NCBI RefSeq assembly: GCF_020297055.1
Contig: NZ_JAIXCQ010000013.1
Location: 1-64,000 of the forward strand
Length of the DNA: 64,000 nt
Direction: 5' to 3'
Source: Isoptericola luteus
GTDB taxonomy: Bacteria; Actinomycetota; Actinomycetes; Actinomycetales; Cellulomonadaceae
This document shows positions 22,723 to 44,124 of the stretch, in pieces (the first letter of the stretch is position 1; every line of letters starts with the position of its first letter). The notes under the pieces were generated by a model, which ran no database searches, was not told the origin of the DNA, and saw nothing but the letters and a program-made list of their open reading frames with translations. The position numbers and the translations under genes were made by a program.

Positions 22723-23865
22723 ATGACCACGACCTCCAGCACGACCGCGTCCAGCATCCTCCCGTCCGAGCTCGAGGACCTGGTCGCACTGTTCGACGTC
22801 CGAGGCACGGACGACCCCACCCCTGACGCGGACCGCGAGGCGGCGCTGCAGGCGCCCAAGTTCGGCACCGTGTTCTCGGACCACATGGCGCGCATCACGT
22901 GGCGCCAGGCCGACGGCTGGCTCGACCGCCGCATCGAGAAGTACGGTCCGCTCCAGCTCGACCCCGCGGCCGCGGTCCTGCACTACGCGCAGGAGATCTT
23001 CGAGGGGATGAAGGCCTACCGGCACGACGACGGGTCGGTGTGGACGTTCCGGCCGGAGGCCAACGCGGCCCGGTTCGCGCGCTCCGCGCACCGCCTGGCG
23101 CTGCCCGCGCTGTCGATCGACGACTTCGTCGGCTCCGTCGCCGCACTGGTGCGCACGGACGTCGACTGGGTGCCCTCGGGCGAGGACTCCAGCCTGTACC
23201 TGCGCCCGTTCATGTTCGCCTCCGAGACGTTCCTCGGGGTGCGTCCGGCGGCCGAGGTCGAGTACCTCGTCATCGCCTCGCCCGTCGGCCCGTACTTCGC
23301 GGGCGGGGTGCGGCCCGTGTCGATCTGGGTGGACGAGGACTACCACCGGTCCGGGCCCGGCGGCACCGGTGACGCCAAGTGCGGCGGCAACTACGCGGCG
23401 AGCCTCCTGCCGCAGCTGCTGGCCCAGGAGAAGGGCTGCGACCAGGTCTGCTTCCTCGACGCCACGACGAACACCCACCTCGAAGAGCTCGGCGGCATGA
23501 ACGTGTTCGTGGTGATGGCGGACGGTTCCGTGCACACCCCGGAGCTCACCGGCTCGATCCTGGAGGGCGTGACGCGCTCGTCGATCCTTCAGCTCGTGGG
23601 CGACCGCGGGCGGGACGTCGTGGAGCGCCGCATCCCGCTCGCGGAGATCGTGCAGGGCCTGGCGGACGGCACCGTGCGCGAGATCTTCGCATGCGGCACG
23701 GCGGCGGTCGTCACGCCCGTGGGCCGGTTGGCGGGCAGCACGTTCGACCACGCCGTGGCCGGGGGCGAGCCGGGCGAGCTGACCATGGACATCCGCCACG
23801 AGCTCACGGACGTCCAGTACGGGCGTGCGGCGGACCGGCACGGGTGGATGCGCCGCCTCGCGTGA
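22723..23865 (+). CDS. ilvE: Branched-chain amino acid aminotransferase
   Basis: PLP-dependent (fold IV) transaminase for the last step to Val, Leu and Ile. 380 residues. Typical segments: PKFGTVFSDHM, YAQEIFEGMKAYR, the PLP Lys region GDAKCGGNYAASLLPQ, and ACGTAAVVTPVG. The ATG at 22723 gives the family N-terminus; the preceding AAAGG is a weak site. The stop codon lies inside a 72-bp element that is repeated 90 bp downstream. Confidence 0.95.
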   Translation: MTTTSSTTASSILPSELEDLVALFDVRGTDDPTPDADREAALQAPKFGTVFSDHMARITWRQADGWLDRRIEKYGPLQLDPAAAVLHYAQEIFEGMKAYRHDDGSVWTFRPEANAARFARSAHRLALPALSIDDFVGSVAALVRTDVDWVPSGEDSSLYLRPFMFASETFLGVRPAAEVEYLVIASPVGPYFAGGVRPVSIWVDEDYHRSGPGGTGDAKCGGNYAASLLPQLLAQEKGCDQVCFLDATTNTHLEELGGMNVFVVMADGSVHTPELTGSILEGVTRSSILQLVGDRGRDVVERRIPLAEIVQGLADGTVREIFACGTAAVVTPVGRLAGSTFDHAVAGGEPGELTMDIRHELTDVQYGRAADRHGWMRRLA

Positions 23866-24061
23866 GCCGGAGGTGCAGCGCAGGGTGAGGGCCGAGGAAC
23901 GAGGCACTCGCCCGGAGCGGAACCGCAGGCTCGCGCGAGAATGAGGACCGCGTGAGCCGGAGGTGCAGCGCAGGGTGAGGGCCGAGGAACGAGGCACTCG
24001 CCCGGAGCGGAACCGCAGGCAGGCGAGCGGAGGTGTGGCGCAAGCAGGAGCGGAACCGTAG
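23859..24061 (+). repeat. Stop-codon-anchored direct repeat, locus 1 (after ilvE)
   Basis: Two identical 72-bp copies (23859-23930 and 23949-24020) at a 90-bp period, then a degenerate third copy with an internal deletion (about 24026-24061). Copy 1 contains the ilvE TGA; copy 2 carries the same TGA in the same frame, 90 bases later. The core GGAGGTGCAGCGCAGGGTG is shared, in the same orientation relative to the upstream gene, with the element at 43971-44124. Not a tRNA, IS or CRISPR repeat. Confidence 0.9.
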
Positions 24062-24140
24062 GTTCACGCGTGAGGGGCGCGGCATGCGCCGGAGCCGGCG
24101 TGCAATGTGGCGCGTCAGGAGACACCGTGTGAGAGGTCCG

Positions 24141-25283
24141 ATGCCTGTACCCATCAGCGACGACGAGCTGACCCGGACGACGCTGGCCCGCCAGGGCCTG
24201 CTCGCCCGGTCCGACGACGCCCTGGAGGACGTGGTCGGCCGGGTGGGAGGCCTGCAGGCGCAGCACGCGGACATGCCGTACGTCGCGCTGTGGTCGCGGC
24301 GCGCGGGCCAGACGATCGCGGACCTCGAGGCGGCGCTCACCCGCAGGTCCGTGGTCAAGGCGACGCTGATGCGCTCGACGCTGCACGTGGTGCCGAGCGA
24401 GCGGTGGCCGCTGCTGGACGCGGTGTCCGGGGAACAGCGGGCGGCGGCATGGCGGGCGAGCGCCCGCCGGGCCGGCGTCGACCTGGCGGAGCTCAACGCC
24501 GCGGTCCGTGCGTTCTGCGCCACGCCGCGTTCGGTGGACGAGATCGAGGAGCACGCGGCGTCGCTCTACCCGGGCACCGACGTCGTCGGCGCGATCCCGG
24601 GCGGGGTGAGCCGGGCATGGTGGCGGTTGGCGAGCGCGGCGGGCGGGCTCGTGCACGTGCCGCCGAGCGGCATGTGGGGCTCGCACGCCGCACCGCGGTA
24701 CCAGGACGGCACGGTGTGGCTCGCGGACCGGCTGCCGCTGCCGCTGCCGCAGCTCGCCCCGGACGAGGCGCGGTCGCTCGCGGTCGCGGGCTACCTGACG
24801 GCGTTCGGTCCGGCGTCGCTGGCCGACATCGCGCGGGGGCTCGGAATCCGGGGCGCGACGGCGATGAAGACCGCCCTCGGGGGGCTCGACCTGAGGACGT
24901 ACGAGGCCCGTGACGGGCGCGTCCTGTACGACCTCGCGGGCGGCGAGGTCGTGCCGGGCGACACGCCGACGCCGGTGCGGTTCCTGCCTCGGTGGGACCA
25001 GCTGCTCGTGGCGTTCGACGTGCGGGAGCGGGTGCTCGACGCCGAGCAGGCCGCGGCCGTGTACCGGCGCAACGCCGACGTGCTGCCCACGGTGCTGCTG
25101 GACGGCCGGGTCGCCGGCACGTGGGCGTCCGAACGCGACAAGGACGCGGCGACGCTGCGCATCACGACGTTCGTCGAGCCGTCCGCGGGGGCCCGGCAGG
25201 AGGCGGAGGCCGAGGGGCTGGCGCTGCTGCGCTACCTCGAGCCGGACGCCCCGCAGGTGTCCGTCACGTGGGTGGAGCCGTAG
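24141..25283 (+). CDS. Winged-helix DNA-binding domain protein (HTH_42/AlkX family)
   Basis: 380 residues of the YcaQ/HTH_42 family, seen in DNA glycosylase-like proteins acting on cross-links and in uncharacterised actinobacterial relatives. Typical segments: GRVGGLQAQHADMPYVALW, then TLMRSTLHVVPSERW and the C-terminal PVRFLPRWDQLLVAF. The start at 24141 has GAGAGG 5 bases upstream; the longer frame to 24033 runs through the repeat array and is rejected. Its 3' end overlaps the convergent membrane protein by 20 bases. Confidence 0.8.
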   Translation: MPVPISDDELTRTTLARQGLLARSDDALEDVVGRVGGLQAQHADMPYVALWSRRAGQTIADLEAALTRRSVVKATLMRSTLHVVPSERWPLLDAVSGEQRAAAWRASARRAGVDLAELNAAVRAFCATPRSVDEIEEHAASLYPGTDVVGAIPGGVSRAWWRLASAAGGLVHVPPSGMWGSHAAPRYQDGTVWLADRLPLPLPQLAPDEARSLAVAGYLTAFGPASLADIARGLGIRGATAMKTALGGLDLRTYEARDGRVLYDLAGGEVVPGDTPTPVRFLPRWDQLLVAFDVRERVLDAEQAAAVYRRNADVLPTVLLDGRVAGTWASERDKDAATLRITTFVEPSAGARQEAEAEGLALLRYLEPDAPQVSVTWVEP

Positions 25284-25845
25284 GGCGCACGAGCGTGCGT
25301 CCGAGCACGCCGCTGAGCATCGACGACGTGGCGAGCCCCAGGACGATCCACACGAGGGCGGTGACCACGGCCGGCACGGCGTCCGGGTTCCCCGTGAACG
25401 GGGTGACCGCGAGGATCACGGTCACGACGGCGACGAGCCAGCCGAAGAACATGCGGGGCCGCGGTGCCACCATCACGAGCACCTGCAGCACGACGGCGGC
25501 GAGCAGGCCGAAGAGGGCGCCGGTCATCGCCCAGGCCAGGCTCGACGACCCTCCGACCACGTCGAGGAGCCCCACGTCGAAGGCCTGGTCGAAGATCACG
25601 GAGGCCGCGAGGCCGATGAGCCCGCACACGACGACGGTCACGACGGCGCCGGCCCAGTACCGGCGGACGTCGAGGCCGAGCCGTTCGTCTGAGGCGGACG
25701 CAGGCAGGTCGCAGGCCTCCACGGGCTCGTCGGTGGGAACCGTCCCCGGTGGGGTGGTGGGCACGGGGGTCGGCCCGCCCGGAGGGAAGGACCGTGGGCG
25801 CGGCGAGGGGTCGTACGGCTCGCCGCCGTGCATGGATGCGTTCAT
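25264..25845 (-). CDS. Four-helix membrane protein of unknown function
   Basis: 193 residues: a proline-rich cytoplasmic N-terminus (about 1-60), then four hydrophobic segments (AGAVVTVVVCGLIGLAASV, AMTGALFGLLAAVVLQVLVM, FFGWLVAVVTVILAVTPF, AVVTALVWIVLGLATSSML). Resembles the DUF6069-type membrane proteins of actinobacteria, but I am not certain. AGGAGG lies 9 bases before the ATG. Divergent from cimA. Confidence 0.7.
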   Translation of the reverse strand: MNASMHGGEPYDPSPRPRSFPPGGPTPVPTTPPGTVPTDEPVEACDLPASASDERLGLDVRRYWAGAVVTVVVCGLIGLAASVIFDQAFDVGLLDVVGGSSSLAWAMTGALFGLLAAVVLQVLVMVAPRPRMFFGWLVAVVTVILAVTPFTGNPDAVPAVVTALVWIVLGLATSSMLSGVLGRTLVRPTAPPT

Positions 25846-26002
25846 CGGACGGACCTCCTGACGTCGTGACCGTCACTGCGATCACATCACAGCAGGTGAG
25901 GCGCTGCCTCGCGAGGCTCGCGGCGGGCGGCGAGCCCGGCTCGCCCGCCCGGCGGGCGGACGATGGTGACCGGCGTGGTGCGGGTGTGGCACCATGTGAG
26001 CC

Positions 26003-26044
26003 ATGACACGCCTCGCGCACCAGCGTCCGCTGATCATTGCGTAG
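26003..26044 (+). CDS. cimA leader peptide (13 residues)
   Basis: ATG frame reading MTRLAHQRPLIIA and stopping at TAG, with Leu-Ile-Ile just before the end. Isoleucine is the end product of the citramalate pathway that the following gene starts. One of the two Ile codons is ATT, rare here. A perfect 8-bp hairpin begins at the last base of the stop codon and a terminator follows, so this looks like ribosome-mediated attenuation. No Shine-Dalgarno; CACCAT 7 bases upstream is a weak -10. Confidence 0.68.
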   Translation: MTRLAHQRPLIIA

Positions 26045-26099
26045 CGCGTCCGGCCACCGCTGGACGCGCAGACCTTCCGTACCCCGGGGGGTCTTTTTT
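26020..26099 (+). promoter_or_regulatory. cimA transcription attenuator
   Basis: Terminator: 9-bp stem (26070-26078 with 26086-26094, two G-U pairs), 7-base loop, then a run of T's to 26099. Immediately upstream is a perfect 8-bp hairpin GCGCGTCC/GGACGCGC (26044-26051 with 26062-26069). Its right side can alternatively pair with CCAGCG inside the leader frame (26020-26025 with CGCTGG 26058-26063). The geometry resembles a pause/terminator system controlled by where the ribosome stands on the leader peptide. Confidence 0.7.
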
Positions 26100-26164
26100 C
26101 ATGACCAGAGCACGAAGCACCACGACGTCCCGCCCCCGGACGTCCCCGAGATGGGGAGCCCCGC

Positions 26165-27811
26165 ATGGCCACCGCCGGATTCCACGTGTACGACACCACC
26201 CTGCGTGACGGCGCGCAGCAGGAGGGGATGAACCTCTCCGTGGCGGACAAGCTCGCGATCGCGCCGCTGCTCGACGAGCTCGGCGTCGGCTTCATCGAGG
26301 GCGGCTGGCCGGGCGCGGTGCCCAAGGACACGGAGTTCTTCCGCCGGGCGGCCAAGGAGCTCGAGCTCAAGCACTCCGTCCTGGCGGCGTTCGGCGCGAC
26401 CCGCAGGGCCGGTGCCCGGGCGTGGGACGACCCGCAGGTCCGGGCCCTGGTGGACGCCGAGACCCCGGTGGTGACGCTCGTCGCCAAGTCGGACGTGCGT
26501 CACGTGGAGCGTGCGTTGCGGACCACGCCGGACGAGGGTCTCGCGATGATCGCGGACACCGTGGCGTTCCTGGTGGGCGAGGGGCGTCGTGTGGTCGTCG
26601 ACGCGGAGCACTTCTTCGACGGCTACCGGTACGACGCGGCGTTCACCCGCGCGGCGGTCGAGGCCGCATTCGGCGCGGGGGCCGAGGTCGTCACGCTGTG
26701 CGACACGAACGGCGGGATGCTGCCGCACTGGGTGACCGACGTCGTCGGCGAGCTGCGCGGGGCGCTGGCCCTGGAGCACGGCCGGGACGCGCCCGCGGGC
26801 GCCCCGATCCTCGGGATGCACGCGCACAACGACTCGGGCTGCGCCGTCGCGAACACCCTCGCCGCCGTCGAGGCGGGCTGCTGGCACGTCCAGGGCACGG
26901 TGAACGGCTACGGCGAGCGCACGGGCAACGTGGACCTCGTGACGGTCGTCGCGAACCTCGAGCTCAAGGACGGGCTGCGGACCCTCGCGGGCGACGGGCT
27001 CGCGGAGTCCACCCGCATCGCGCACGCCGTCGCCGAGATCACGAACATCTCCCCGTACGGGCGCCAGCCCTACGTCGGGGCGAGCGCGTTCGCGCACAAG
27101 GCGGGTCTGCACGCCAGCGCGATCAAGGTCGACCCGGACCTGTACCAGCACATCGACCCGACCGCGGTCGGCAACGACATGCGCATGCTCGTCTCCGACA
27201 TGGCGGGCCGGGCGTCGATCGAGCTCAAGGGCCGCGAGCTCGGCTTCGACCTGTCCGGCCAGGGCGAGCTGCTCTCGCGCGTCACCGCGCGGGTCAAGGA
27301 CGCCGAGGCGCAGGGCTACACGTACGACGCGGCCGACGCGTCGTTCGAGCTGCTGCTCCGCGAGGAGCTGGGGGAGCGGCCGGCGTTCTTCCGGGTGGAG
27401 AGCTGGCGCACCATCGTCGAGACGGTGGCCGGCGGCAGCGCGGACCGGCACGACGCCGAGGCCGTCGCGGAGGCGACCGTGAAGCTGCACGCGGGCGGGG
27501 AGCGGGTCGTGGCCACCGGGGAGGGCAACGGCCCGGTGAACGCTCTCGACCAGGCGCTGCGCCACGCGCTGACCCGGGTCTACCCGCAGATCGGGGGGTT
27601 CGAGCTCATCGACTTCAAGGTGCGCATCCTCGACGCGCAGCACGGCACGGACGCGACCACGCGGGTGCTCGTCGAGACGAGCGACGGGCAGGGGTCGTGG
27701 TCGACGGTCGGGGTGGGGCCGAACATCATCGAGGCGGCGTGGGAGTCGCTCATCGACGCGTACGTGTTCGGGCTGCTGCATGCCGGGGTCGAGCCGCAGA
27801 CCGCGGGGTGA
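26165..27811 (+). CDS. cimA: (R)-citramalate synthase
   Basis: Condenses pyruvate and acetyl-CoA to citramalate, a threonine-independent route to 2-oxobutyrate and isoleucine. 548 residues: HMGL-like TIM barrel (about 5-290) with YDTTLRDGAQQEG, the metal-binding HAHNDSGCAVANTLAAVEAG and NGYGERTGNVDL, then a C-terminal LeuA-type regulatory dimer domain (about 400-545). The SVADKLAIAPLLDELGVGFI start and length separate it from LeuA. The next steps can be run by LeuCD and LeuB, all encoded in this window. Controlled by its own attenuator. Confidence 0.92.
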   Translation: MATAGFHVYDTTLRDGAQQEGMNLSVADKLAIAPLLDELGVGFIEGGWPGAVPKDTEFFRRAAKELELKHSVLAAFGATRRAGARAWDDPQVRALVDAETPVVTLVAKSDVRHVERALRTTPDEGLAMIADTVAFLVGEGRRVVVDAEHFFDGYRYDAAFTRAAVEAAFGAGAEVVTLCDTNGGMLPHWVTDVVGELRGALALEHGRDAPAGAPILGMHAHNDSGCAVANTLAAVEAGCWHVQGTVNGYGERTGNVDLVTVVANLELKDGLRTLAGDGLAESTRIAHAVAEITNISPYGRQPYVGASAFAHKAGLHASAIKVDPDLYQHIDPTAVGNDMRMLVSDMAGRASIELKGRELGFDLSGQGELLSRVTARVKDAEAQGYTYDAADASFELLLREELGERPAFFRVESWRTIVETVAGGSADRHDAEAVAEATVKLHAGGERVVATGEGNGPVNALDQALRHALTRVYPQIGGFELIDFKVRILDAQHGTDATTRVLVETSDGQGSWSTVGVGPNIIEAAWESLIDAYVFGLLHAGVEPQTAG

Positions 27812-27857
27812 CTCCGGGAGCGGCCGGGTGCGGCCGGGTGCGGGGCCGGCGCGCGGC

Positions 27858-28733
27858 TCAGCGGCGCGGGAGCAGGCGGTGCGGCTGCACGGCGTCGTAC
27901 GTCGCCTTGAGCGCGGCGGCCGTCGCGTCGTAACGCTGCTGGGCGACCCGCACGAACAGGAAGTCGACGACCGCGAGCTGCGCGATGCGGCTGGACATGG
28001 CGCCGGAGCGGAACTGCGTCTCGCGCGCCGTCGTGGTCAGGACGATGTCGGCGAGCTCCGCCAGCGGTGACGCCGGGAAGTTGGTCACCGCGATCGTGGT
28101 GGCCCCGGCCTCCTTCGCGAGGCCCAGCGCCTGGTTCGACTCGACGGTGCGCCCCGTGTGGGACACGGCGACGGCCACGCATCCCGGCGTGAGCAGGGCG
28201 GCGGACGTGAGCTGGCCGTGCGGGTCCACGGGCGCGGTGCACACCAGGCCGATCCGGGACAGCTTCTGGGCGAGGTCCTGCGCGGTGAGGCCGCTGGACC
28301 CCACCCCGTAGACGTCGGTGCGGGGCGCCGCGGCGACCGCCTCGACGGCGCGCTCGAGGGCCTCGAGGTCGAGCATGCGGGCCGTCTCCTCGATGGTGCG
28401 CGCCTCGTGGAACGCGATCTTGGAGACGACGTCGGTGGTCGTGTCGGTCTGGTTGATCTCGCCCTCGGCGATCCCGGACCGCTCGAGCTCGAGCTCGAGC
28501 CGGCTCGTGGCCTGGGCCAGGTCGATCCGGAACTCGGGGTAGCCGGCGTACCCGACGGCACGGCAGAATCGCACCACCGTGGCCTGCGAGGTCTCGGCCC
28601 GCGCGGCCAGCTCGGTGATCGTGGCGCCGACGACGCCGGTGGCGTCGTCGAGCACGACCTGGGCGATGCGGGCCTCCGCGGGGCGCAAGGTCGGGAGCGC
28701 CTGGCGGAGCCGGACGAGCACGTCACCGTTCAC
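27858..28733 (-). CDS. RpiR/MurR family transcriptional regulator
   Basis: 291 residues: N-terminal RpiR helix-turn-helix (about 1-80, ITELAARAETSQATVVRFCRAVGY) and C-terminal SIS sugar-phosphate-binding domain (about 120-260, VYGVGSSGLTAQDLAQKL ... VAVSHTGRTVESNQALGLAK). Family members respond to phosphosugars; MurR relatives repress MurNAc-6-P genes. The operon with nagZ-like and murQ genes lies 1.5 kb downstream with one gene in between, so it is the obvious candidate regulator. GTG start. Confidence 0.87.
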   Translation of the reverse strand: MNGDVLVRLRQALPTLRPAEARIAQVVLDDATGVVGATITELAARAETSQATVVRFCRAVGYAGYPEFRIDLAQATSRLELELERSGIAEGEINQTDTTTDVVSKIAFHEARTIEETARMLDLEALERAVEAVAAAPRTDVYGVGSSGLTAQDLAQKLSRIGLVCTAPVDPHGQLTSAALLTPGCVAVAVSHTGRTVESNQALGLAKEAGATTIAVTNFPASPLAELADIVLTTTARETQFRSGAMSSRIAQLAVVDFLFVRVAQQRYDATAAALKATYDAVQPHRLLPRR

Positions 28734-28885
28734 GCGCCCAGTGTGACATTTGTTTTCGGATACCGGGGCATTTGCGGAGGAAATCTCACCCGCGACCGTC
28801 GTCCCTGCTCCCGGGCCTGCCGCCCGGTCGGCGTGTGACGAACGGTACTCCCGCAGCCGCGTCGAACCGCGGATACGGTGGTGCC

Positions 28886-29962
28886 GTGCATGGTGAGTAC
28901 AAGGTTCCCGGGGGAAAGCTCGTCGCGGTCGACCTCGAGGTGCGGGACGAGCAGCTGTCCGACGTCCGCCTCAGCGGGGACTTCTTCCTGGAGCCCGACG
29001 ACGCGCTCGGCGTCATCGACGCGGCGCTGACCGGGGTGCCGGCCGCCTCTGCCACCGGGGAGCTGGCGCGCGCGGTCTCCTCCGCGCTGCGTGCGGCGGA
29101 GACGTCCGGCGAGGTGGTCGGGCCCGTCGCGATGGTCGGGTTCGACGAGTGGGCCGTCGCCGTGGCGGTCCGCCGGGCGCTGGGCCTGGCCACGACGTGG
29201 GAGGACCACACCTTCGAGGTGCTGCGCCCGGGCCCGCTGTCGCCCGCGACGCTGGCGGCGCTCGACCAGGTGCTCACCGAGGAGCTGGCGGCGGGACGGC
29301 GCGGTCCCACGCTGCGGTTCTGGGACTGGAACGAGCGGGCCGTGTTCATCGGCTCCTTCCAGTCCCTCGCCAACGAGGTCGACCCGGCCGGGGTCCGCGA
29401 GCACGACGTGACCGTCGTGCGGCGGATCTCCGGGGGCGGGGCGATGTTCATGGAGGCGGGCAACTGCGTGACCTTCTCGCTCGTGGTGCCCGCCTCTCTC
29501 GTGGACGGCATGACCTTCGAGCAGTCCTACGCGTTCCTCGACCAGTGGGTGCTGGGCGCCCTGGCGGACGTGGGCGTCGAGGCGTACTTCTCGGGCCTCA
29601 ACGACGTGGCCTCGCCCGCAGGCAAGCTCGCCGGGTCGGCCCAGAAGCGGCTGGCCGGCGGCGCGGTGCTGCACCACATGACGATGGCCTACGACATCGA
29701 CAGCGCGAAGATGCTCGAGGTGCTGCGCATCGGGCGCGAGAAGCTGTCCGACAAGGGCACCCGGAGCGCCGCGAAGCGCGTCGACCCCTTGCGCTCGCAG
29801 ACGGGCCTGTCGCGCGAGCAGATCGTCGACGCGTTCGAGGCGCACTTCCGGGGCCTGCACTCCACCGTGGACTCCGAGCTGCGCCCCCAGGAGCTGGAGC
29901 GTGCCGCCGAGCTGGTGCGCACCAAGTTCGCCGACCCGGCGTGGATCAACCGGGTGCCCTGA
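28886..29962 (+). CDS. Lipoate-protein ligase A family protein
   Basis: 358 residues. The small accessory domain normally found at the LplA C-terminus is at the N-terminus here (about 1-90, EYKVPGGKLVAVDLEVRDEQ, then LSGDFFLEPDDAL); the biotin/lipoate ligase catalytic domain follows (about 120-350: WDWNERAVFIGSFQS, VVRRISGGGAMFMEAGN, KLAGSAQKRLAGGAVLHH). The RRxSGGGxxFH-type motif has Met-Phe-Met in place of the usual Val-Phe-His. Either lipoylates acyl carriers or is an octanoyl transferase. GTG at 28886, TACGGT 6 bases upstream, no ribosome-binding site. Confidence 0.86.
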   Translation: MHGEYKVPGGKLVAVDLEVRDEQLSDVRLSGDFFLEPDDALGVIDAALTGVPAASATGELARAVSSALRAAETSGEVVGPVAMVGFDEWAVAVAVRRALGLATTWEDHTFEVLRPGPLSPATLAALDQVLTEELAAGRRGPTLRFWDWNERAVFIGSFQSLANEVDPAGVREHDVTVVRRISGGGAMFMEAGNCVTFSLVVPASLVDGMTFEQSYAFLDQWVLGALADVGVEAYFSGLNDVASPAGKLAGSAQKRLAGGAVLHHMTMAYDIDSAKMLEVLRIGREKLSDKGTRSAAKRVDPLRSQTGLSREQIVDAFEAHFRGLHSTVDSELRPQELERAAELVRTKFADPAWINRVP

Positions 29963-30040
29963 CCGGCCGATCCCGTCGCTCCTGCAGGCCGCCTGCCCGC
30001 GGCCCGCCCGCGTCCGACCCGGCCGCTCGCAGGTCACCGT

Positions 30041-30123
30041 CGGGTCACGACCCGCGCGTGGGGTCTTCCCCTGCCCACGCTCCGGCAGTAATCTTCATCA
30101 TGCGACGGTGATCGGGAAGTTCC
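30041..30123 (+). promoter_or_regulatory. Promoter/operator region of the amino-sugar operon
   Basis: The 318-base gap before the ABC operon holds a 14-bp palindrome CGGGTC-AC-GACCCG (30041-30054), a -10 hexamer TAATCT (30089-30094, with a poor TTCCCC at -35 spacing) and a short palindrome GGAA-G-TTCC (30115-30123) just downstream of the presumed start. Either palindrome could bind the RpiR-type regulator. The remaining 150 bases before the ATG show nothing I can name. Confidence 0.45.
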
Positions 30124-30280
30124 TTTCAGCCGACGGCCGTCGCACGACCGACCGAGCAGAGCCAGCGAGACGACGACGTCGCGCAGAGACGACGACGTCG
30201 ACACGGGACACGGACATCGACGACGGCGCCCCCGGCGCCGGGCGAGGACGGCGGCCGGCGGCCGCCCAGGAAGGACGACG

Positions 30281-36947: not shown

Positions 36948-37039
36948 GACGCCAGTCTACGAAGCGGCAGGGCGACTCGGGGGCGTCTCAGGGGGATCCC
37001 GGGTGGTGGCGCCGCTCCCGCGCGCGGGACAATGCCCGC

Positions 37040-37459
37040 ATGAAGGCGCTGCTCAACATCATCTGGCTCGTGTTCGGCGGGTTCTGGCTCGCGCTCGGCT
37101 ACGCCGCGGCGGGCATCCTGTGCTGCATCACGATCGTGGCCATCCCGTGGGGCATCGCGTCGTTCCGGATCGCCGGGTACGCGCTGTGGCCGTTCGGCCG
37201 CACCGTCGTCGACAAGCCCGGAGCCGGCGGCTGGTCCGTGCTCGGCAACATCATCTGGATCATCTTCGCGGGCATCTGGCTCACCGTCGGGCACATCACC
37301 ACCGCCGTCGCGCAGGCCGTCACGATCATCGGCATCCCGCTCGCCATCGCGAACCTCAAGATGATCCCGGTCTCGCTGCTCCCGCTGGGCAAGGACATCG
37401 TGCCGAGCGACGCCCGGTTCCCGACGTACCAGCACGCCCCGGCGCAGCCGCCGCGCTGA
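37040..37459 (+). CDS. YccF domain membrane protein
   Basis: 139 residues made of two YccF repeats (NIIWLVFGGFWLALGY ... and NIIWIIFAGIWLTVGH ...), each with hydrophobic helices and a GIPxxIAxxx motif (IPWGIASFRIAGYALWPFG; IPLAIANLKMIPVSLLPLG). Inner membrane protein of unknown function. GACAAT ends 6 bases before the ATG. Confidence 0.88.
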   Translation: MKALLNIIWLVFGGFWLALGYAAAGILCCITIVAIPWGIASFRIAGYALWPFGRTVVDKPGAGGWSVLGNIIWIIFAGIWLTVGHITTAVAQAVTIIGIPLAIANLKMIPVSLLPLGKDIVPSDARFPTYQHAPAQPPR

Positions 37460-37462
37460 CCG

Positions 37463-37487
37463 TGACGCCCGCCACGTCCGGGCGTCA
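37463..37487. terminator. Bidirectional terminator between yccF and ybaK genes
   Basis: Perfect 9-bp inverted repeat TGACGCCCG/CGGGCGTCA (37463-37471, 37479-37487) with 7-base loop, between two convergent genes. Confidence 0.5.
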
Positions 37488-37521
37488 GGACTGCGCGATC
37501 GGGCGTCAGGTCCGCGCGATC
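37480..37521 (-). repeat. 21-bp direct duplication over the ybaK stop codon
   Basis: 37480-37500 and 37501-37521 differ at only two positions. The unit contains the ybaK TGA, so a second in-frame stop lies 21 bases later. Confidence 0.7.
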
Positions 37522-38006
37522 GGCGCCAGGACGCCGTCCGTGAGCCGCAGCAGGTCCGCCGGCGCCAGCGAGACGTCCAGCCCGCGCCGTCCGCCGGACA
37601 CGTAGACCCGCTCGCGGGACCCGGCCGCCTCGTCCAGCACCGTGGGGTGACGCTGCTTCTGCCCGAGCGGCGAGATCCCGCCCACCACGTAGCCGGTGGC
37701 GCGCTGGGCCGCGGCGGGCGCCGCCATCGTCGCGCGCTTGCCGCCGACCGCCCTGGCCAGCGCCTTGAGGTCGAGGGAGGCGTCGACCGGCACGATGCCG
37801 ACGACGAGCCGCCCGTCGACGTCCGCCACGAGCGTCTTGAGCACCGCGGCGGGGTCGGCGCCGAGAGCGGCCGCGGCCTCGAGGCCATAGCTGAGCGGTG
37901 AGGCCGGGTCGTGCTCGTACGCGTGCGGCGTGTACGCCACGCCCGCGCGCTCCAGGGCCAGCACCGCGGGCGTACCGTGCGTCGTCTGCTTCGCCTTCTT
38001 GGCCAC
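37506..38006 (-). CDS. Cys-tRNA(Pro)/aminoacyl-tRNA deacylase, YbaK/EbsC family
   Basis: 166 residues of the editing-deacylase fold that hydrolyses Cys-tRNA(Pro): THGTPAVLALERAGVAYTPH at the start, the catalytic Lys in AAVLKTLVADVDGRLVVGIV, and the C-terminal GGISPLGQKQRHPTVLDE loop. GTG at 38006 has no ribosome-binding site but CAGAAT ends 7 bases upstream. Stop codon sits in a 21-bp duplication. Confidence 0.92.
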   Translation of the reverse strand: MAKKAKQTTHGTPAVLALERAGVAYTPHAYEHDPASPLSYGLEAAAALGADPAAVLKTLVADVDGRLVVGIVPVDASLDLKALARAVGGKRATMAAPAAAQRATGYVVGGISPLGQKQRHPTVLDEAAGSRERVYVSGGRRGLDVSLAPADLLRLTDGVLAPIART

Positions 38007-38061
38007 GGCGCCGATTCTGCCGTGCGCGGGCCCGCGACGCCGCACCGCGTACTGTGGCCCG

Positions 38062-38817
38062 GTGCTCGCCCTCCTCGTCCTCGCGATCCTCGTCGGCGGA
38101 GCGCTCCAGCGGGTCACGGGGATGGGCTTCGGACTCGTCGCCGGGCCGTTCATCGTGCTCCTCGTGGGGCCGCTCGATGGGGTGCTCTTCGTCAACCTCG
38201 CGGGGGCGATCGCCTCGCTGCTCATCCTGGGCCGCGTGGTGCGCGACGTCGAGTGGCGCACGTACGCCTGGCTCGCCGCCACGTCGGTGCTGGTGACCGT
38301 GCCGGCAGCGCTGCTCCTGCGCGAGGCGAGCGCCGCGGCGCTCGAGATCACCGTGGGCGCCGTCGTCGTCGTGGCGATGACGCTCGCCGTGGTCACGAAC
38401 CGGCTGCGGACCGAGGGGCGGCACCCCCTGCGGCGCGACGCCCGGTGGCCGCTGGTGCTCACCGGCACGGCGAGCGGGTTCGGCAGCGTCGCGGCCGGCA
38501 TCGGCGGGCCGCCGGTCGCGATCTACTCCGTGCTGAGCGGGTGGGACCCGCGCCGGTTCGCCGCGACGGCGCAGCCGTACTTCGCGACGAACGCCGTCGC
38601 AGCGATCGTGTCCAAGGTCGTGTTCGCCGACGCGACGTTCCCGGCGTTCGACTGGTGGCAGTGGGTCGTCGTGCTCGGCGCCGTCGTGGGCGGCCTCGTC
38701 ATCGGCGACGTGCTGGCGCCCCGCGTGTCCACGACCGCGATGCGTCGCGGGCTCATCGTGCTCGCGTACCTCGGTGGTGCCGCGACGCTCGTGCGGGGCC
38801 TGCTGCACCTCGGCTGA
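38062..38817 (+). CDS. TauE/SafE family membrane exporter
   Basis: 251 residues with seven to eight hydrophobic segments in two halves; the family motif GFGSVAAGIGGPPVAIYSVL sits near residue 140, mirrored by QRVTGMGFGLVAGPFIVLLV near the N-terminus. Members export sulfite, sulfoacetate or related organic anions; the substrate here is unknown. TACTGT ends 6 bases before the GTG start. Confidence 0.88.
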   Translation: MLALLVLAILVGGALQRVTGMGFGLVAGPFIVLLVGPLDGVLFVNLAGAIASLLILGRVVRDVEWRTYAWLAATSVLVTVPAALLLREASAAALEITVGAVVVVAMTLAVVTNRLRTEGRHPLRRDARWPLVLTGTASGFGSVAAGIGGPPVAIYSVLSGWDPRRFAATAQPYFATNAVAAIVSKVVFADATFPAFDWWQWVVVLGAVVGGLVIGDVLAPRVSTTAMRRGLIVLAYLGGAATLVRGLLHLG

Positions 38818-38839
38818 GCGGCGGCAGCCCGGCCGGACG

Positions 38840-39313
38840 TCAGACCGGCCGGTCGCCCTGCTCCCCGGGTCGTGACGCGTCCGGCGGCCCGTCGGCGCGG
38901 TGCTCGGGAGCGTGACCGGGCGGACGCCCCTGCTCCGGCGCGCGACCCTGGTCCGGGTCCAGCTCGTCGGCGCGTCGCAGGCGCTCGTCGACCTCGGCCC
39001 TGCGCTCGCCGAGGCTCGCGTCCCGGCTCCGCGCCTCCTCCTGCAGGCGCGCGGCCTCGGCAGCCTTCCGGTCGGCCTCCGCCTGCGACAGCCGGGCCTC
39101 CGCGTCGAGCTTCGCGGTGGCGGCCTCGCGCTCCTGCACGGCGATGCGGTCGTGCGCCGCCTGCTGGCGCAGCTCGGCGGCCTCGTCGCGACGCTCGTCG
39201 CGACGCCGCTCCTGGGCGGCCCGCGACCGACGTGCCAGCGCCATGGCGATCAGCACGATCAGCAGCACGACGACGACGGCGACGACGATCCAGACGATGG
39301 TCGTGGTGTCCAT
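38840..39313 (-). CDS. Membrane-anchored coiled-coil protein
   Basis: 157 residues: one N-terminal transmembrane helix (IVWIVVAVVVVLLIVLIAMA), then about 85 residues of highly charged heptad-like sequence rich in Glu, Arg, Ala and Gln (AELRQQAAHDRIAVQEREAA), and a disordered polar tail. Probably a single-span scaffold with a cytoplasmic coiled coil. AGGAG lies 6 bases before the ATG. I do not recognise a named family. Confidence 0.75.
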   Translation of the reverse strand: MDTTTIVWIVVAVVVVLLIVLIAMALARRSRAAQERRRDERRDEAAELRQQAAHDRIAVQEREAATAKLDAEARLSQAEADRKAAEAARLQEEARSRDASLGERRAEVDERLRRADELDPDQGRAPEQGRPPGHAPEHRADGPPDASRPGEQGDRPV

Positions 39314-39437
39314 GGCGGACTCCTGACGTCGGGGACGCCCGGGTGGCGCCCTGTGTCGATCACAGGGCTCCTCGGCGTTGCTTGCAACCGGTGCCACGTG
39401 CGACGTCGCGCGACCGGGGGCGACGCGTGCGACCGGC

Positions 39438-42173
39438 TCAGAACTGCCCGACGTCCACGACGGTGAGGACGACCGCGCCGGCCTCGTCGCTCGCCGCCAG
39501 GTCGACGACACCGGTGATGGCCCAGTCGCCGTCGCCGTCGGCGTCGTCGAGCACCTGCCGCACCCACCACGTGCCGGGCTGGACGACGCCGTGCTCGCCC
39601 TCCCCGCCGACGCCCCGCGTCGTCGCGCCACCGGGCAGCTCGGCCCCCGGCTCGAGGATCGTGAGCAGGGCCGTGGAGCGAGCCTGCGGCCCGATGCCGA
39701 TCGCCTCGTCGCCCTGGGCCTCGAACAGCGGGTCGAGGGCCTCGGCCCAGGCGTCGCCGTCCCAGCCCCCCGTGCCGTCCAGGGCGCCCAGCCCGGCGTA
39801 GCTCTCGCGGGCCGCGAGCTCCACCCGGCGGAACATGGCGTTGCGCACCAGGCGGCGGAACGCGCGCGGGTTGCCGGTCACCGGGCGCGCCGGCGCCTCC
39901 GCCCCCGCCTCGGCCAGCTCGCCCTCGACGACCAGGTCGGCGTCGTCGTCCACCGGGTTCTGCAGGCGCTCCCACTCGTCGAGCAGGGAGGAGTCGACAC
40001 CGCGCACCAGCTCGCCGAGCCACTCGACGATCTCCGCGACCTCCTCGGTGCGGTGCTCGTCGGGCACCACCTGGCGCACCGCCCGGTAGGCGTCGGCGAG
40101 GTAGCGCAGCACCACGCCCTCCGTGCGCTCGAGGCCGTAGACGGAGACGAGCTCGGCGAACGTCATCGCCTGCTCGAGCATGTCGCGCACCACGGACTTG
40201 GGCGCCGGCTGGGCGTCGGCCACCCACGGGTTGGACTTCTTGTACAGCTCGAACGCAGGCTCGAGCAGGTCGGCCAGCGGGCGCGGCCAGGTGACCTCCT
40301 CGAGCGCCTCCATGCGCTCCTCGTACTCCATGCCCTCGGCCTTCATCGCGGCGACGGCCTCGCCCTTCGCCTTGTTCTGCTGGCCGTAGAGGATCTGGCG
40401 CGGGTCGTCGAGCGTCGCCTCGATGACGGACACGACGTCGAGGGCGTGCGCCGGGGACTCGACGTCCAGCAGGTCCATGGCCGCGAGCGCGAACGGGGAC
40501 AGCGGCGCGTTGAGCGCGAAGTCGCGGGGCAGGTCGACGACCAGCCGGACGCTCGGCCGGTACCCGGTGGGCCGGGCCGCGTCCGGGACGCGGATCTTCT
40601 CGACGACGCCCGCCAGCCGCAGCGAGCGGTAGATGCGGAACGCCTGGCGCACGTGCTTGGCCTGCTGCGCCTCGGTGTCGTGGTTCGCGCTGAGCAGGTG
40701 CCGCATCGCGTCGACCGGGTCGGCGTGCTCGCCGTCGTCCCGGGTGCGCGCCAGCACGTTGAGGACCATCGCGTGGTTGACGCGGAACTGGCTGGACAGC
40801 GGCTCCGGGTCGGCGTCGCGCAACCGCTCGTAGGTCGAGTCCGTCCAGTTCACGGAGCCCGACGGGGCCTTCTTGCGGACGATCTTCTTGAGCTTCTTCG
40901 GGTCGTCGCCCGCCTTGGCGAGCATCTTGCGGTTCTCGATGACGTGGTCCGGCGCCATCACGAGCACCTCGCCGATCGTGTCGAACCCGGCGCGCCCCGC
41001 GCGGCCGGAGATCTGGTGGAACTCGCGCGCCGACAGGTGGCGCATGCGCTCGCCGTCGAACTTCACCAGGGACGTCAGCAGCACGGTGCGGATGGGCACG
41101 TTGATGCCGACGCCGAGCGTGTCGGTGCCGCACACCACCTTGAGCAGGCCCTTCTGGGTGAGCCGCTCCACCAGGCGGCGGTACTTGGGCAGCATGCCCG
41201 CGTGGTGCACGCCCACCCCGGCGCGCAGGAACTTGCTCAGCGTCTTGCCGAAGCCCGTGCCGAACCGGAACGCGCCGATCTCGGCCGCGATCCGGGCCTT
41301 CTCGTCCTTGCCGGCCAGCGGCGTCGACAGCAGCGCCTGCGCCCGCTCGACGGCGTCCTTCTGCGTGAAGTGCACGACGTACACCGGGGCGCGGTGCGTG
41401 GTGACGAGCTCGGAGATCACCTCCGTCAGCGGCTCGACGACGTAGGAGAACGTCAGCGGCACGGGCCGCTCGGCCCCCGCGACCTCGGCCACGGGGCGGC
41501 CCGTGCGCTCCGCCAGGTCCTCGCGCAGCCGCGTCGTGTCACCGAGCGTGGCCGACATCAGCAGGAACTGGGTGTTGGGCATCTCCAGCAGCGGCACCTG
41601 CCAGGCCCAGCCGCGCTGCGGGTCGCCGTAGAAGTGGAACTCGTCCATGACCACCTGGGTGATCGCGTCGTCCTCGGTGCCGTCCGCGGCGGCGTCGCCG
41701 TCGGTGCCCGAGCCGCGCAGTGCCAGGTTCGCGAGGATCTCCGCCGTGCAGCAGATGATCGGGGCGTCGGCGTTGACGGCGGAGTCGCCCGTCATCATGC
41801 CTACGTTGCGCGAGCCGAACGCGGCCACGAGGTCGAAGAACTTCTCGCTGACCAGCGCCTTGAGCGGGGCCGTGTAGAACGTGCGTCCGCCCAGGCCCGA
41901 GCGCCGGGCCGCCAGCGCCGCGAACTGCGCGCCCATTGCGACCATCGACTTGCCGGAGCCGGTGGGCGTCGCCAGGACGACGTGCGAGCCCGTCATGAGC
42001 TCCAGCAGCGCCTCCTCCTGGTGGGCGTAGAGCGGTCGACCGGTCCCCGCCGCCCACTCGCCGAAGCTCTCGAACAGGACGTCGGCGTCCGGGGCGCCGC
42101 CCGTCGGAGCGGGCAGGTGCGGCAGCAGCGTGCCGGCGGGGCGGGGGGCGGGGGCGGTGTCGAGGGAGGTCAT
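39438..42173 (-). CDS. DEAD/DEAH-box RNA helicase with DUF3516 C-terminus (Ski2-like)
   Basis: 911 residues. Helicase core about 40-560: Walker A ATPTGSGKSMVA, DExH box VMDEFHFYGD, SATLGD, HHAGMLPKYRRLVE and the QxxGRxGR-type HQISGRAGRAGFD. A long C-terminal region (about 560-911) matches actinobacterial DUF3516 proteins. Probably an RNA helicase for turnover or ribosome biogenesis. The ATG at 42173 has GAGGG within 10 bases upstream on its strand being weak; the frame is open further to 42308, so the N-terminus is slightly uncertain. Confidence 0.92.
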   Translation of the reverse strand: MTSLDTAPAPRPAGTLLPHLPAPTGGAPDADVLFESFGEWAAGTGRPLYAHQEEALLELMTGSHVVLATPTGSGKSMVAMGAQFAALAARRSGLGGRTFYTAPLKALVSEKFFDLVAAFGSRNVGMMTGDSAVNADAPIICCTAEILANLALRGSGTDGDAAADGTEDDAITQVVMDEFHFYGDPQRGWAWQVPLLEMPNTQFLLMSATLGDTTRLREDLAERTGRPVAEVAGAERPVPLTFSYVVEPLTEVISELVTTHRAPVYVVHFTQKDAVERAQALLSTPLAGKDEKARIAAEIGAFRFGTGFGKTLSKFLRAGVGVHHAGMLPKYRRLVERLTQKGLLKVVCGTDTLGVGINVPIRTVLLTSLVKFDGERMRHLSAREFHQISGRAGRAGFDTIGEVLVMAPDHVIENRKMLAKAGDDPKKLKKIVRKKAPSGSVNWTDSTYERLRDADPEPLSSQFRVNHAMVLNVLARTRDDGEHADPVDAMRHLLSANHDTEAQQAKHVRQAFRIYRSLRLAGVVEKIRVPDAARPTGYRPSVRLVVDLPRDFALNAPLSPFALAAMDLLDVESPAHALDVVSVIEATLDDPRQILYGQQNKAKGEAVAAMKAEGMEYEERMEALEEVTWPRPLADLLEPAFELYKKSNPWVADAQPAPKSVVRDMLEQAMTFAELVSVYGLERTEGVVLRYLADAYRAVRQVVPDEHRTEEVAEIVEWLGELVRGVDSSLLDEWERLQNPVDDDADLVVEGELAEAGAEAPARPVTGNPRAFRRLVRNAMFRRVELAARESYAGLGALDGTGGWDGDAWAEALDPLFEAQGDEAIGIGPQARSTALLTILEPGAELPGGATTRGVGGEGEHGVVQPGTWWVRQVLDDADGDGDWAITGVVDLAASDEAGAVVLTVVDVGQF

Positions 42174-42235
42174 GGTGCGGCCATTGTCCCAGCCCGGCCC
42201 ACGCCGTCCACGCCCTGATCGACCGTGGGGCGGAG

Positions 42236-42958
42236 TCAGCAGGCGCCGAGGTCCTTCCAGACGCCCCACTCGCCGCTGTTCGCCGGGTTCTCGCCCCGGG
42301 TCCACCACTTGGCCTGGTACGTCCGGCCGTCGTGCGAGACCTGGGCCCCGTTGAGGTAGACGGCGTTCGCGTCCCAGGCGGCCGCCTCGCAGTCACCGGG
42401 CGGGTCCGTCGGGTCGGGGTCCGGGTCGGGCTCGCCGGTGCCATCCACGTTCACGTCGACGCACGCGTAGAAGGCGTTGGCGGTGTCCGCGACGTTCCAG
42501 CGCGCCAGGATCGTGTGGTTCCCCGCCGGCAGGTTCTCCACCCTGTGCTCGACGACGGACCCCGGCTGGGCGCCGCCGTCGTCGAACGTGCGGTGCAGCA
42601 CGCCGTCGACGAAGTACTCCCACGTGCTCGTGGCGTGCCGGGCGGTGAGCTCCCACCGGAAGGTGGTGCTGCTGCCGACCGTGGTGCGCGGCCACGGCTT
42701 CGACGTGTCGTCGAGGATCGAGAACCGGCTGCCGCCGGAGCACAGCATGGAACCCTTGGGCGCCTCGACGCTGTGCGGCTCATACTTGATCTGGCCGCAG
42801 TCGAAGGACGTCGTGCCCGTCGCGCAGTGGTCCTGGCGGCTGGGTGGCGACGTGATCCAGCCGTGTGCCGACGCGCTCGGCGCGACGACGACGGGGGCCG
42901 CGACGGTCAGGAGCCCGACCGCGGCGGCGAGCAGTGCGGAGCGAAGCTTGGTCTTCAT
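42236..42958 (-). CDS. Secreted lytic polysaccharide monooxygenase (AA10) with CBM5/12, copy 1
   Basis: 240 residues. Signal peptide 1-31 ends ASA, so the mature enzyme begins with His32 (HGWITSPPSRQDHC), the copper-binding N-terminal His of the His brace; the second His is H108 in TARHATSTWEYF. Catalytic domain about 32-170, Asp/Pro-rich linker, then a chitin-type carbohydrate-binding module (about 190-240, WDANAVYLNGAQVSHDGRTY ... WWTRGEN). Oxidatively cleaves chitin or cellulose; the CBM5/12 favours chitin. Next to a near-duplicate. Confidence 0.95.
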   Translation of the reverse strand: MKTKLRSALLAAAVGLLTVAAPVVVAPSASAHGWITSPPSRQDHCATGTTSFDCGQIKYEPHSVEAPKGSMLCSGGSRFSILDDTSKPWPRTTVGSSTTFRWELTARHATSTWEYFVDGVLHRTFDDGGAQPGSVVEHRVENLPAGNHTILARWNVADTANAFYACVDVNVDGTGEPDPDPDPTDPPGDCEAAAWDANAVYLNGAQVSHDGRTYQAKWWTRGENPANSGEWGVWKDLGAC

Positions 42959-43072
42959 CGACTCGTCTCCCTCGTGTTGCTCTGGGGCACCGGTGTGGTG
43001 CTTGCTTCGTCTGGCGACGGCGGGCGGCCCGCGGGAGGGTCCGCCCGCCGCGTCAGGACGAGGTCCGGGACG

Positions 43073-43801
43073 TCAACAGGCGCCCAGGTCCCTCCACGCT
43101 CCCCATTCGCCGGTGGTCGTGGGGTTCTCGCCCCGGGTCCACCACCTGGCCTCGTACGTGTGGCCACCGACGGTGGCCCGGTCACCGAGTACGTAGACGG
43201 CCGCCGGGTCCCAGGCTGCGACGTCGCAGTCGCCGGGCTCGACGGGCGGGTCGGTCGGGTCGACGGGCGGCTCGGTGGTGCCGCCGCCCTCGCCCACGGT
43301 CACGTCGACGCACGCGTAGAACGCGTTCACCGTGTCGGCGACGTTCCAGCGGGCGAGGATCGTGTGGTCGCCCGCCGGGAGGTTGTCGACCGTGTGCTCG
43401 ACGACGGCGTCCGGCTTGGCGCCGTGGTCGTCGAACGTGCGGTGCAGCACGCCGTCGACGAAGTACTCCCACGTGCTCGTGGCGTGCTGGGCCTTGAGCT
43501 GCCAGCGCATCGTCACGCTGTTGTCGATCTGGGTGCGCGGCCAGGGCAGGGACTCGTCGTCGAGCACCGTGAAGCCGCCGCCGCCGGAGCACTGCATGGA
43601 GCCCTTCGGGGCCTCCACGCTCTGCGGCTCGTACTGCAGGCCGCCGCAGTCGAACGACACCGCCCCGGTCGAGCAGTGGTCCTGCCGGCTCGGCGGGTTG
43701 GTGACCCATCCGTGGGCGGAGGCCGTGGGTGCCACGAGGACCGGCGCGAGAAGGGCCGCGGCTCCGACGGCCGCAGCGACCAGAGTTGAACGCCATCGCA
43801 T
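43073..43801 (-). CDS. Secreted lytic polysaccharide monooxygenase (AA10) with CBM5/12, copy 2
   Basis: 242 residues with the same plan as its neighbour: signal peptide 1-29, mature N-terminal His30 (HGWVTNPPSRQDHC), second copper His H106 (QHATSTWEYF), linker rich in Pro/Glu/Thr, and C-terminal CBM5/12 (WDPAAVYVLGDRATVGGHTY). The catalytic domains are highly alike, while linker and CBM have diverged most. First in order on this strand, 114 bases upstream of copy 1; a GGGAG ribosome-binding site precedes the ATG. Confidence 0.95.
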   Translation of the reverse strand: MRWRSTLVAAAVGAAALLAPVLVAPTASAHGWVTNPPSRQDHCSTGAVSFDCGGLQYEPQSVEAPKGSMQCSGGGGFTVLDDESLPWPRTQIDNSVTMRWQLKAQHATSTWEYFVDGVLHRTFDDHGAKPDAVVEHTVDNLPAGDHTILARWNVADTVNAFYACVDVTVGEGGGTTEPPVDPTDPPVEPGDCDVAAWDPAAVYVLGDRATVGGHTYEARWWTRGENPTTTGEWGAWRDLGAC

Positions 43802-43825
43802 CTATTGCTCTCCCGTTCGTGAGGG

Positions 43826-43842
43826 AACTTGACAAACTTGAC
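43826..43842 (-). promoter_or_regulatory. Direct repeat upstream of the LPMO pair, possible regulator site
   Basis: Two AACTTGAC units (43826-43833 and 43835-43842; GTCAAGTT on the coding strand) at a 9-bp period, 25-41 bases before the LPMO start. TAGCGT (43844-43849 on the minus strand) directly upstream could be the -10. Chitin genes in actinobacteria are often controlled through direct repeats near the promoter. No DasR-like site is visible. Confidence 0.4.
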
Positions 43843-43950
43843 GCTAGGTCGTCGTCCGCCCCCGCACATCAGGTGAACTGCGTAACCCGGCCCTGCCGAC
43901 CGGTGCCTCGGGCTAGGGGATTCCGCGTACGCGGAGAGCGCCCCGGTGCT

Positions 43951-44124
43951 TGCACCTTCGCCTCAGCCAGCGGTTGCGCTGCGGGCGGGTGCCTCGTGCC
44001 TCGGCCCCCACCCTGCGCTGCACCTTCGCCTCAGGCTGTGTCGTCTGTCGGCGGGGGCTGCGGTTGCGCTGCGGGCGGGTGCCTCGTGCCTCGGCCCCCA
44101 CCCTGCGCTGCACCTCCGCCTCAG
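43951..44124 (-). repeat. Stop-codon-anchored direct repeat, locus 2 (after the phosphotransferase gene)
   Basis: Two 64-bp copies (44061-44124 and 43971-44034, nearly identical) at a 90-bp period, plus a 16-bp partial third copy (43951-43966). Read on the minus strand each starts with TGAGGCGGAGGTGCAGCGCA or a one-base variant; copy 1 contains the stop codon of the phosphotransferase gene. About 85-90% identical to the repeats after ilvE, in the same orientation to the gene and with the same 90-bp period. Confidence 0.9.

Follow-up and report, generated by a model that had tools for sequence, protein, structure and literature searches.

A mobile hairpin on the stop codons of unrelated actinobacterial genes with an inverted copy of the gene end in its 3' arm

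Two unrelated genes of Isoptericola luteus, ilvE and a phosphotransferase gene, end in closely related short repeats that include the stop codon of the gene. What places the same sequence on the stop codons of genes with nothing else in common, and how does it fit itself to each of them? We addressed these questions starting from a 64,000-nt stretch of the genome (assembly GCF_020297055.1, contig NZ_JAIXCQ010000013.1, positions 1 to 64,000), referred to below as the window. The first-pass annotation had described at both genes a repeat carrying the TGA in its first copy, a second copy 90 bp further on, a partial third one and hence a second in-frame stop. It had suggested either a 3'-UTR processing or termination RNA or a site-specific element inserting at gene ends, and not a REP, MITE or CRISPR repeat that it recognized.

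The repeats in the window and their spacing

The observation itself was confirmed, and both loci are organized as had been described. The features are as follows (T1, end of the host gene; T', 3' arm; T2, repeat of the gene end).
22633-23865 (+): host gene ilvE (aminotransferase class IV), TGA at 23863-23865
23858-23938 (+): copy 1 at ilvE, whole hairpin: gene end TCGCG (T1, 23858-23862), stop TGA (23863-23865), core, arm CGCGA (T', 23934-23938)
23939-23952 (+): linker and T2 (..CCGCG) before the TGA of copy 2
23948-24026 (+): copy 2 at ilvE, 90 bp on; its 3' arm (GGCGAG, with a 2-nt deletion beside it) fits the CTCGCC gene end of relatives, not the present CTCGCG
24027-24073 (+): decayed third copy, ending at about 24073 (read from the sequence)
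44121-44864 (-): host gene, phosphotransferase of the Pfam APH family, TGA at 44121-44123
44048-44128 (-): copy 1 at the phosphotransferase gene: gene end TCGGC, TGA (44121-44123), core and 3' arm
43958-44038 (-): copy 2, 90 bp on
43946-43967 (-): partial third copy, approximate limits (read from the sequence)
18784-18864 (+): a further, decayed copy, missed in the first-pass annotation, on the TGA (18789-18791) of ilvB, before ilvN (both genes named from their translations)

The similarity is far beyond chance: the four main copies matched the query in the own genome with E values of 1.4e-32 to 1.6e-19 and scored 102.8, 86.5, 78 and 77.2 bits with a covariance model, although the model was built partly from the first of them. 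The copy at ilvB, the fifth, scored 32.8 bits (E 4e-6). The phenomenon is also much larger than two loci, since the genome of the window has at least 17 matches at 10 sites. The spacing, however, is not fixed at 90 bp. In 72 multi-copy loci the 84 intervals were 87 (2 cases), 88 (12), 89 (15), 90 (39), 91 (5), 92 (7), 93 (3) and 95 bp (1), so that 40 of 84 are not multiples of three. The in-frame second stop is therefore a coincidence of the two loci and fails as a rule (44 of 84 intervals), and in-frame readthrough or selenocysteine-like recoding was rejected as a general role because periods of 88, 89, 91, 92 and 95 bp break the frame.

Position on stop codons and the locus-specific arm

It had been set beforehand that copies placed at random relative to stop codons, or with a freely varying period, would reduce the two loci to coincidence; the copies proved not to be randomly placed and the period is confined to 87-95 bp. 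In loci from 16 Isoptericola genomes, 99 of 113 first copies start exactly on the TGA of a co-oriented upstream gene, 3 more lie within 6 nt and 11 do not meet our ORF criterion. Copies were also not randomly placed in a second set of loci, which overlaps the first since some contigs come from the same genomes. Partial hits, hits near contig ends, N-masked sites and duplicate contexts were dropped before counting. Counts are by copy, and copies are not independent since some loci (trkH, lacI-like) are shared between species. The preference for stops may follow in part from the target motif alone: in the window TCGNCTGA occurs 3 times at called stops, once in genes and 4 times elsewhere, some of these inside the elements themselves, as judged by our own simple gene calls. 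G was present at position -3 in 120 of 124 copies, against 19 of 38 TGA genes called in the window.

The copies fold on the sense strand into a rod hairpin whose core, of about 66 nt, contains three 3x3 GNA/GNA internal loops, retained in nearly all aligned copies. Two-sided changes were found in 15 of 26 pairs and the covariation was.315 against.134 (sd.011), a value reached in 0 of 500 shuffles. Among the 154 of 208 copies without indels, there were 57 G.U against 15 A.C cells and a near-invariant U.G pair (150 of 154).

The closing stem of the hairpin includes the last 5 nt of the host gene. The 3' arm of the element, T', is their reverse complement and differs from locus to locus (own match 5.09 of 7, permuted 3.72, sd 0.08). 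Among 124 full-length first copies at TGA with an ORF of at least 60 codons, the WC frequency at positions -1 to -5 was.99,.81,.97,.96 and.85, falling to.27 at -6, whereas the cross-locus control gave.76,.30,.94,.74,.42 and.29. The match is not perfect, since mismatches remain in 23 of 124 copies at -2 (12 of them A.G; T' is G in 19) and in 18 of 124 at -5. A direct copy of the gene end, T2, often follows after a short linker (own match 4.52 of 7, permuted 3.28, sd.08; 115 of the 124 copies had a TG to anchor on). In Promicromonospora the segment after the linker is often a recurrent 'agagcctga' instead of a copy of the gene end.

Empty and filled orthologous sites, turnover and core-deleted remnants were observed. 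By our reading the element is absent or decayed in 17 of 18 relatives at ilvE, 12 of 18 at trkH and 15 of 17 at an imuB-dnaE2-like junction. At the last, the clearest locus, the gene in all 17 genomes found ends in TATGAC plus a stop; 15 show no element, and the two filled ones carry GTCAT and GTCAG as T' (5 and 4 of 5 pairing), so the host is the template. Sixty pairs of copies (tandem units included) with identical 59-nt cores but different T had T' differing by 1.22 of 5, with an own match of 4.59 against 3.53 when swapped, and the match showed no trend with core divergence. In 19 second-or-later units whose T differs from that of the gene, T' fits the gene end better in 16 and its own T in 3.

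Origin of the inverted arm

Our preferred explanation, held with moderate confidence, is a non-coding, MIRU-like mobile hairpin of Actinomycetes with the unit T1-C-T'-l-T2, in which T1 is the last 5 nt of the host gene plus TGA, C the core, T' the reverse complement of T1, l a linker (commonly 7-9 nt) and T2 a repeat of T1. The analysis itself demonstrates the location on stops, the sense orientation, the fold with its covariation, the locus-specific T', the direct repeat at most loci, the empty and filled sites, tandem growth, core-deleted remnants and the existence of relatives beyond the family. The mechanism, in contrast, is inferred. In this view the element would enter where a gene end resembles its own T (TCGNC|TGA), the single-stranded hairpin would fold back onto T1, and DNA synthesis would copy T1 into T' during insertion or in a template-switch event soon after; whole units, T' included, would later be duplicated in tandem between the T repeats. 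Stops would predominate because the target contains TGA, which in these GC-rich genomes is tolerated mainly at gene ends, although in-frame insertions inside tolerant protein regions also occur. The identical-core pairs and the lack of a trend with core divergence speak for T' being set early, and the second-or-later units for its being set once. Strict copying of all five nucleotides would leave no mismatch at birth, contrary to the residual mismatches at -2 and -5, and identical cores could reflect constraint or transfer rather than youth. No mobilizing enzyme, if there is one, was found among those searched for (see below).

As to the first-pass interpretation, it was partly supported. Insertion of a site-specific element at gene ends is supported by the anchoring on stops, the empty and filled sites, and the turnover and remnants. 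Of the exclusion of REP, MITE and CRISPR repeats only the first was borne out, as far as no Y1 transposase was found in 18 of 18 genomes, and the element is not unlike everything known, since mycobacterial MIRUs also sit at TGA in tandem. With a 3'-UTR processing or termination RNA the sense-strand bias of the fold is merely compatible, whereas absence and decay at orthologous sites argue against an essential role.

Among the alternatives the one that survives best, though we consider it unlikely, is correction after insertion: the element would arrive with the T' of its donor, and repeated quasipalindrome template switching during replication would rewrite T' (or T1) to restore the stem. Template switching has been proposed to create and repair RNA stems (PMC8794818), mismatched T' at -2 are mostly the common letter G (19 of 23), and the arm of copy 2 at ilvE fits the gene end of relatives while copy 1 fits the present one. 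However, the match does not rise with age, second units are not corrected to their own T, and the 3x3 loops persist. Slow compensation was rejected on the lack of a trend with core divergence and on the identical-core pairs, with the above caveat on core constraint.

Less probable still is selection for a 3' mRNA structure acting at the stop codon (ribosome-termination structure, stalling, 3' protection or attenuation), with T' evolving by compensatory change. The G.U bias and the near-invariant U.G pair favour it, as do trkH copies with GGT/acc against GGG/ccc; structures just after stops are reported to govern re-initiation (PMC7518266) and REPs within 15 nt of a stop to stall ribosomes (PMC12306157). 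Against it, T' differs between copies with identical cores, the element is absent or decayed at the same gene in most relatives, second units drift unpaired, and by a crude frame test the next gene is co-directional in 65, on the other strand in 30 and unclear in 9 of 104 cases. Guided insertion, in which an inherited T' pairs with the target as guides do in IS200/IS605 or bridge-RNA elements, would agree with the strong target motif and with mismatches mainly at one position but is very unlikely, since an inherited guide should travel with its core while identical cores carry different T', no Y1 transposase was found in 18 genomes and IS110 is present in only 6 of 18.

How MIRU-type repeats move has, to our knowledge, not been established since they were named. 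Here each copy records its own target in an inverted arm, so the order of events (insertion, templating, tandem growth, decay) can be read from genomes and tested. It also warns that textbook covariation in a stem can be produced at insertion by copying and is not by itself proof of selected RNA structure. Tentatively, the process may be an integration by target-templated fold-back, in which a hairpin of ~70 nt without a known transposase joins the stop codon, primes on itself and writes an inverted copy of the target into its own end. Such a mode of mobility, perhaps ancestral to MIRU-type elements, was not described for bacterial repeats in the literature consulted, and no title or abstract opening listed in our searches named this element.

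Relation to known repeats

The closest known elements are the mycobacterial interspersed repetitive units, MIRUs (Supply et al. 1997, as cited by others; PMC12548453; PMC2734929), short GC-rich tandem units, mobile and dispersed, at TGA or ATGA gene boundaries; MIRUs insert at DTGA/ATGA stop-start overlaps of operon genes; the copies described here lie on TGA in 99 of 113 cases, but by the crude frame test the next gene is co-directional in only 65 of 104. A MIRU core hit 13 of 394 Actinomycetes genomes, all of one genus (taken to be Mycobacterium) of the family labelled f22, with 51-55 bp tandem spacing. In 23 such loci there is no locus-specific arm, the longest complementary run of the host flank being 4.17 own and 4.14 swapped (sd.20). 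The unit described here is longer, its T' copies the host, and ends facing an opposite-strand gene are used too. Model R2, preferred to model R1 whose alignment was poor, lists no f22 genome among its 12 under strict filters that lose weak matches, and the sequences share only a similar GCAGCG..GAGG flavour; common descent is not shown. Divergent relatives elsewhere in Actinomycetes mostly obey the T' rule. One genome of another family, G149, holds a subfamily with a constant stem, and an ATGA-type subfamily exists there; of the loci compared, 42 were used and three (L307, L308, L303) that gave no stop by the criterion were left out. Three further loci (L314, L344, L380) look like chance or degenerate matches and are not used as support.

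REP/REPIN elements with RAYT are likewise palindromic, intergenic and partly near stops (PMC12306157), but a profile search for the Y1 transposase (PF01797) gave 0 of 18 genomes, with controls positive in 5 of 14, and here the stem includes the stop codon and host coding letters. A retroelement (retron, DGR, group II intron) is not indicated, as reverse transcriptase (PF00078) was found in 0 of 18 genomes, with controls positive in 3 of 14. The IS110 recombinase (PF01548) was found in 6 of 18 genomes; it is absent from the window's own genome, and there is none in genomes G000 and G007, which have at least 17 and 21 matches. On this evidence none of the three is the mover. A MITE of a DDE transposon would have element-encoded terminal inverted repeats directly flanked by the target duplication, and a matching transposon; here the core is itself an imperfect inverted repeat and a direct repeat exists, but a host-specific arm and a linker lie between them on the right, and a relation to MITEs remains possible. 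No Rfam family matched these loci at gathering score, nothing convincing appeared in a permissive search, and plasmid and phage collections gave no match.

Integron attC sites are likewise imperfect hairpins after the stop of a gene, with arms complementary within each site but different between sites; the present elements lie at dispersed housekeeping genes and, of the GTTRRRY core of attC sites, no GTT was seen at the stem base in the alignment. YPAL/RU-2 of Yersinia (PMC2229807) shows target duplications of variable size and targets at or near dyad symmetry, but is 168 bp long and no locus-specific arm is mentioned in the text consulted. Like Rickettsia palindromic elements (PMC10969869), the element can sit in frame inside proteins, as in a maltokinase-like gene (loci L171, L206) and the N-terminus of an ABC ATPase (L230, L212), although it is mostly on stops and not preferentially in frame in ORFs, has a host-templated arm, and few in-frame cases were seen among the copies off stops. 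When they land off a stop, the elements add to or change proteins.

Genomic position of the element

The first-pass annotation had described a sequence carrying the stop codon of ilvE, and a closely related one carrying the stop codon of a phosphotransferase gene, each repeated 90 bp further on, and both loci were found to be exactly as it stated. In the genome under study 17 matches at E values up to 1e-4 were detected at 10 sites. The search with the model listed three more on the contig designated C26, one of which lies near the contig end and is perhaps an assembly duplicate. Two further features of the window were recorded:

18784-18864 (+), decayed copy of the same element on the TGA of ilvB, with an altered apical loop and a downstream 'GACTGA' resembling T2 (the direct repeat of the gene end)
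44892-44978, five perfect copies of a 17-bp unit between two minus-strand genes

Among 18 genomes of the genus Isoptericola 16 have matches, and we read 113 first copies from them (individual loci are designated L, genomes G). In 99 of these the TGA of a long high-GC3 frame on the same strand lies exactly at the first model base, three lie within 6 nt, and 11 fail the criterion applied. Of the latter, L032 and L066 border runs of N, L016 and L058 are partial copies, L011 and L053 fail only the GC3 cut-off and L072 has the gene end of L011, L075 and L108 lie 35 and 4 nt past the stop codon of a gene, respectively, and L097 and L134 show no such gene. Among 121 first copies obtained in a scan of genome contigs, 78 are at offset 0, 18 are within 6 nt (10 of them displaced by one base), 15 have no such stop codon and 10 are too near a contig end. 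The Pfam families of the host genes include aminotransferase class IV, APH, TrkH, LacI, MFS and ParA-like proteins, whereas two of the eight proteins scanned had no match; the hosts share nothing evident.

Predicted hairpin and the arm complementary to the host gene

The consensus folds into a single rod with three 3x3 internal loops of the form GNA/GNA. Of eight single copies folded alone four had z below -2.4, the weakest being L003 (z -0.24). In an alignment of 26 diverse copies 94.1% of cells pair, 15 of 26 pairs have two-sided changes and the covariation score is.315, in comparison to.134 (sd.011) in shuffled alignments (0 of 500 shuffles) and.026-.064 in slid controls. When the host arm, the pair of the TGA's own T and one invariant U.G pair are set aside, G.U cells outnumber A.C cells 57 to 15, so that the sense strand is the one that folds.

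The closing stem runs through the stop codon into the coding sequence. The last five letters of the element are the reverse complement of the last five letters of the gene, with a sharp edge between positions -5 and -6, and after a linker, commonly of 7-9 nt, the gene end is repeated. Rare gene ends (TATGAC, GCA, GGG and GAGGAA) follow the rule. At a gene preceding a dnaE2-like start the 17 genomes found all end in TATGAC plus a stop codon; 15 of them show no element and the two filled ones have the arms GTCAT and GTCAG. In Arthrobacter sp. ISL-30 the same apical core is present at the end of the presumed rplK gene with a TAA stop, its arm being complementary in 9 of 9 positions and accompanied by a 20-nt direct copy with two differences. 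Copies at the end of presumed rplK were seen in an Arthrobacter and in a genome of the family designated f6 (L141 and L300), with TAA and TAG stops, and in L300 the element seems to supply the stop codon.

The arm is not set slowly, since the match does not depend on core divergence, and copies with identical 59-nt cores have different arms, mostly fitting their own sites. The findings on the timing of the arm should be read with the caveat that cores may be constrained or transferred and that loci shared between species are counted more than once. Nor is the arm set continually, since in tandem arrays in which the second T (the repeated gene end) has drifted the arm still fits the gene end better in 16 of 19 cases. 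So the arm was set at the first unit and carried along by duplication. Residual A.G mismatches with a common G at position -2 show that copying was incomplete or that correction followed.

Mobility and distribution of the copies

At ilvE one full element (that of the window) and one core-deleted remnant in genome G014 were found, with no clear element in the other 16 genomes. At trkH we read six full elements and several remnants among 18 genomes, the rest being empty. Copies were also found away from stop codons. Three tandem units with a period of 93 bp sit in frame inside a gene for a maltokinase-like protein of Antribacter gilvus (L171, about 2434-2700) and one unit sits in frame in such a gene of a second genus (L206, about 3058). 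The element also lies in frame at the start of an ABC ATPase (L230 and L212), and in L229 and L231 new stop codons arise a few codons into the element.

With the model designated R2 the element was listed in 28 of 396 genomes of the order and 12 of 394 genomes of the class. Outside the family the cores differ but the gene end, the inverted arm and the direct copy recur: for 22 loci the longest complementary run was 5.59 with the own gene end against 4.73 (sd.19) when gene ends were swapped, although the runs of L320 and L326 (3 nt) are no better than chance. These belong to a subfamily (L319-L324 and L326) in G149, a genome of another family of the order, which has a constant stem, near-constant 'GGCATGAGCGGCGAGGAGCG' flanks and no locus-specific arm, and in which the upstream stop and a possible downstream start overlap at ATGA, as in MIRUs. 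In a genus of the class designated g126 (L373, L376-L379, L383 and L386) the same gene end '..atcgagcggctgagcTGA' carries the element in several genomes, with up to three units at 99-100 bp.

Inferred mechanism and comparison with MIRUs

The analysis itself demonstrates a target motif, a direct repeat of the target, an arm complementary to the target, empty sites, tandem growth and core deletions, whereas hairpin fold-back synthesis on the target, with an as yet unidentified mover, is only inferred. The principle that template switching can create or repair stems (PMC8794818) supports this inference.

MIRUs have been described as mobile units coupled to genes at start codons with a spacing of -4 (PMC12548453), and as units of 40-100 bp at 41 places in H37Rv (PMC2734929). 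In 23 loci found with a MIRU core as the query, a TGA lies within the upstream host flank in 15 and within 20 nt downstream in 17, the left stem letters are constant in 20, and no locus-specific arm shows (longest complementary run 4.17 own, 4.14 swapped). The element analyzed here thus appears to work like a MIRU in site choice and tandem growth but differs in the arm, irrespective of whether the two share a common descent.
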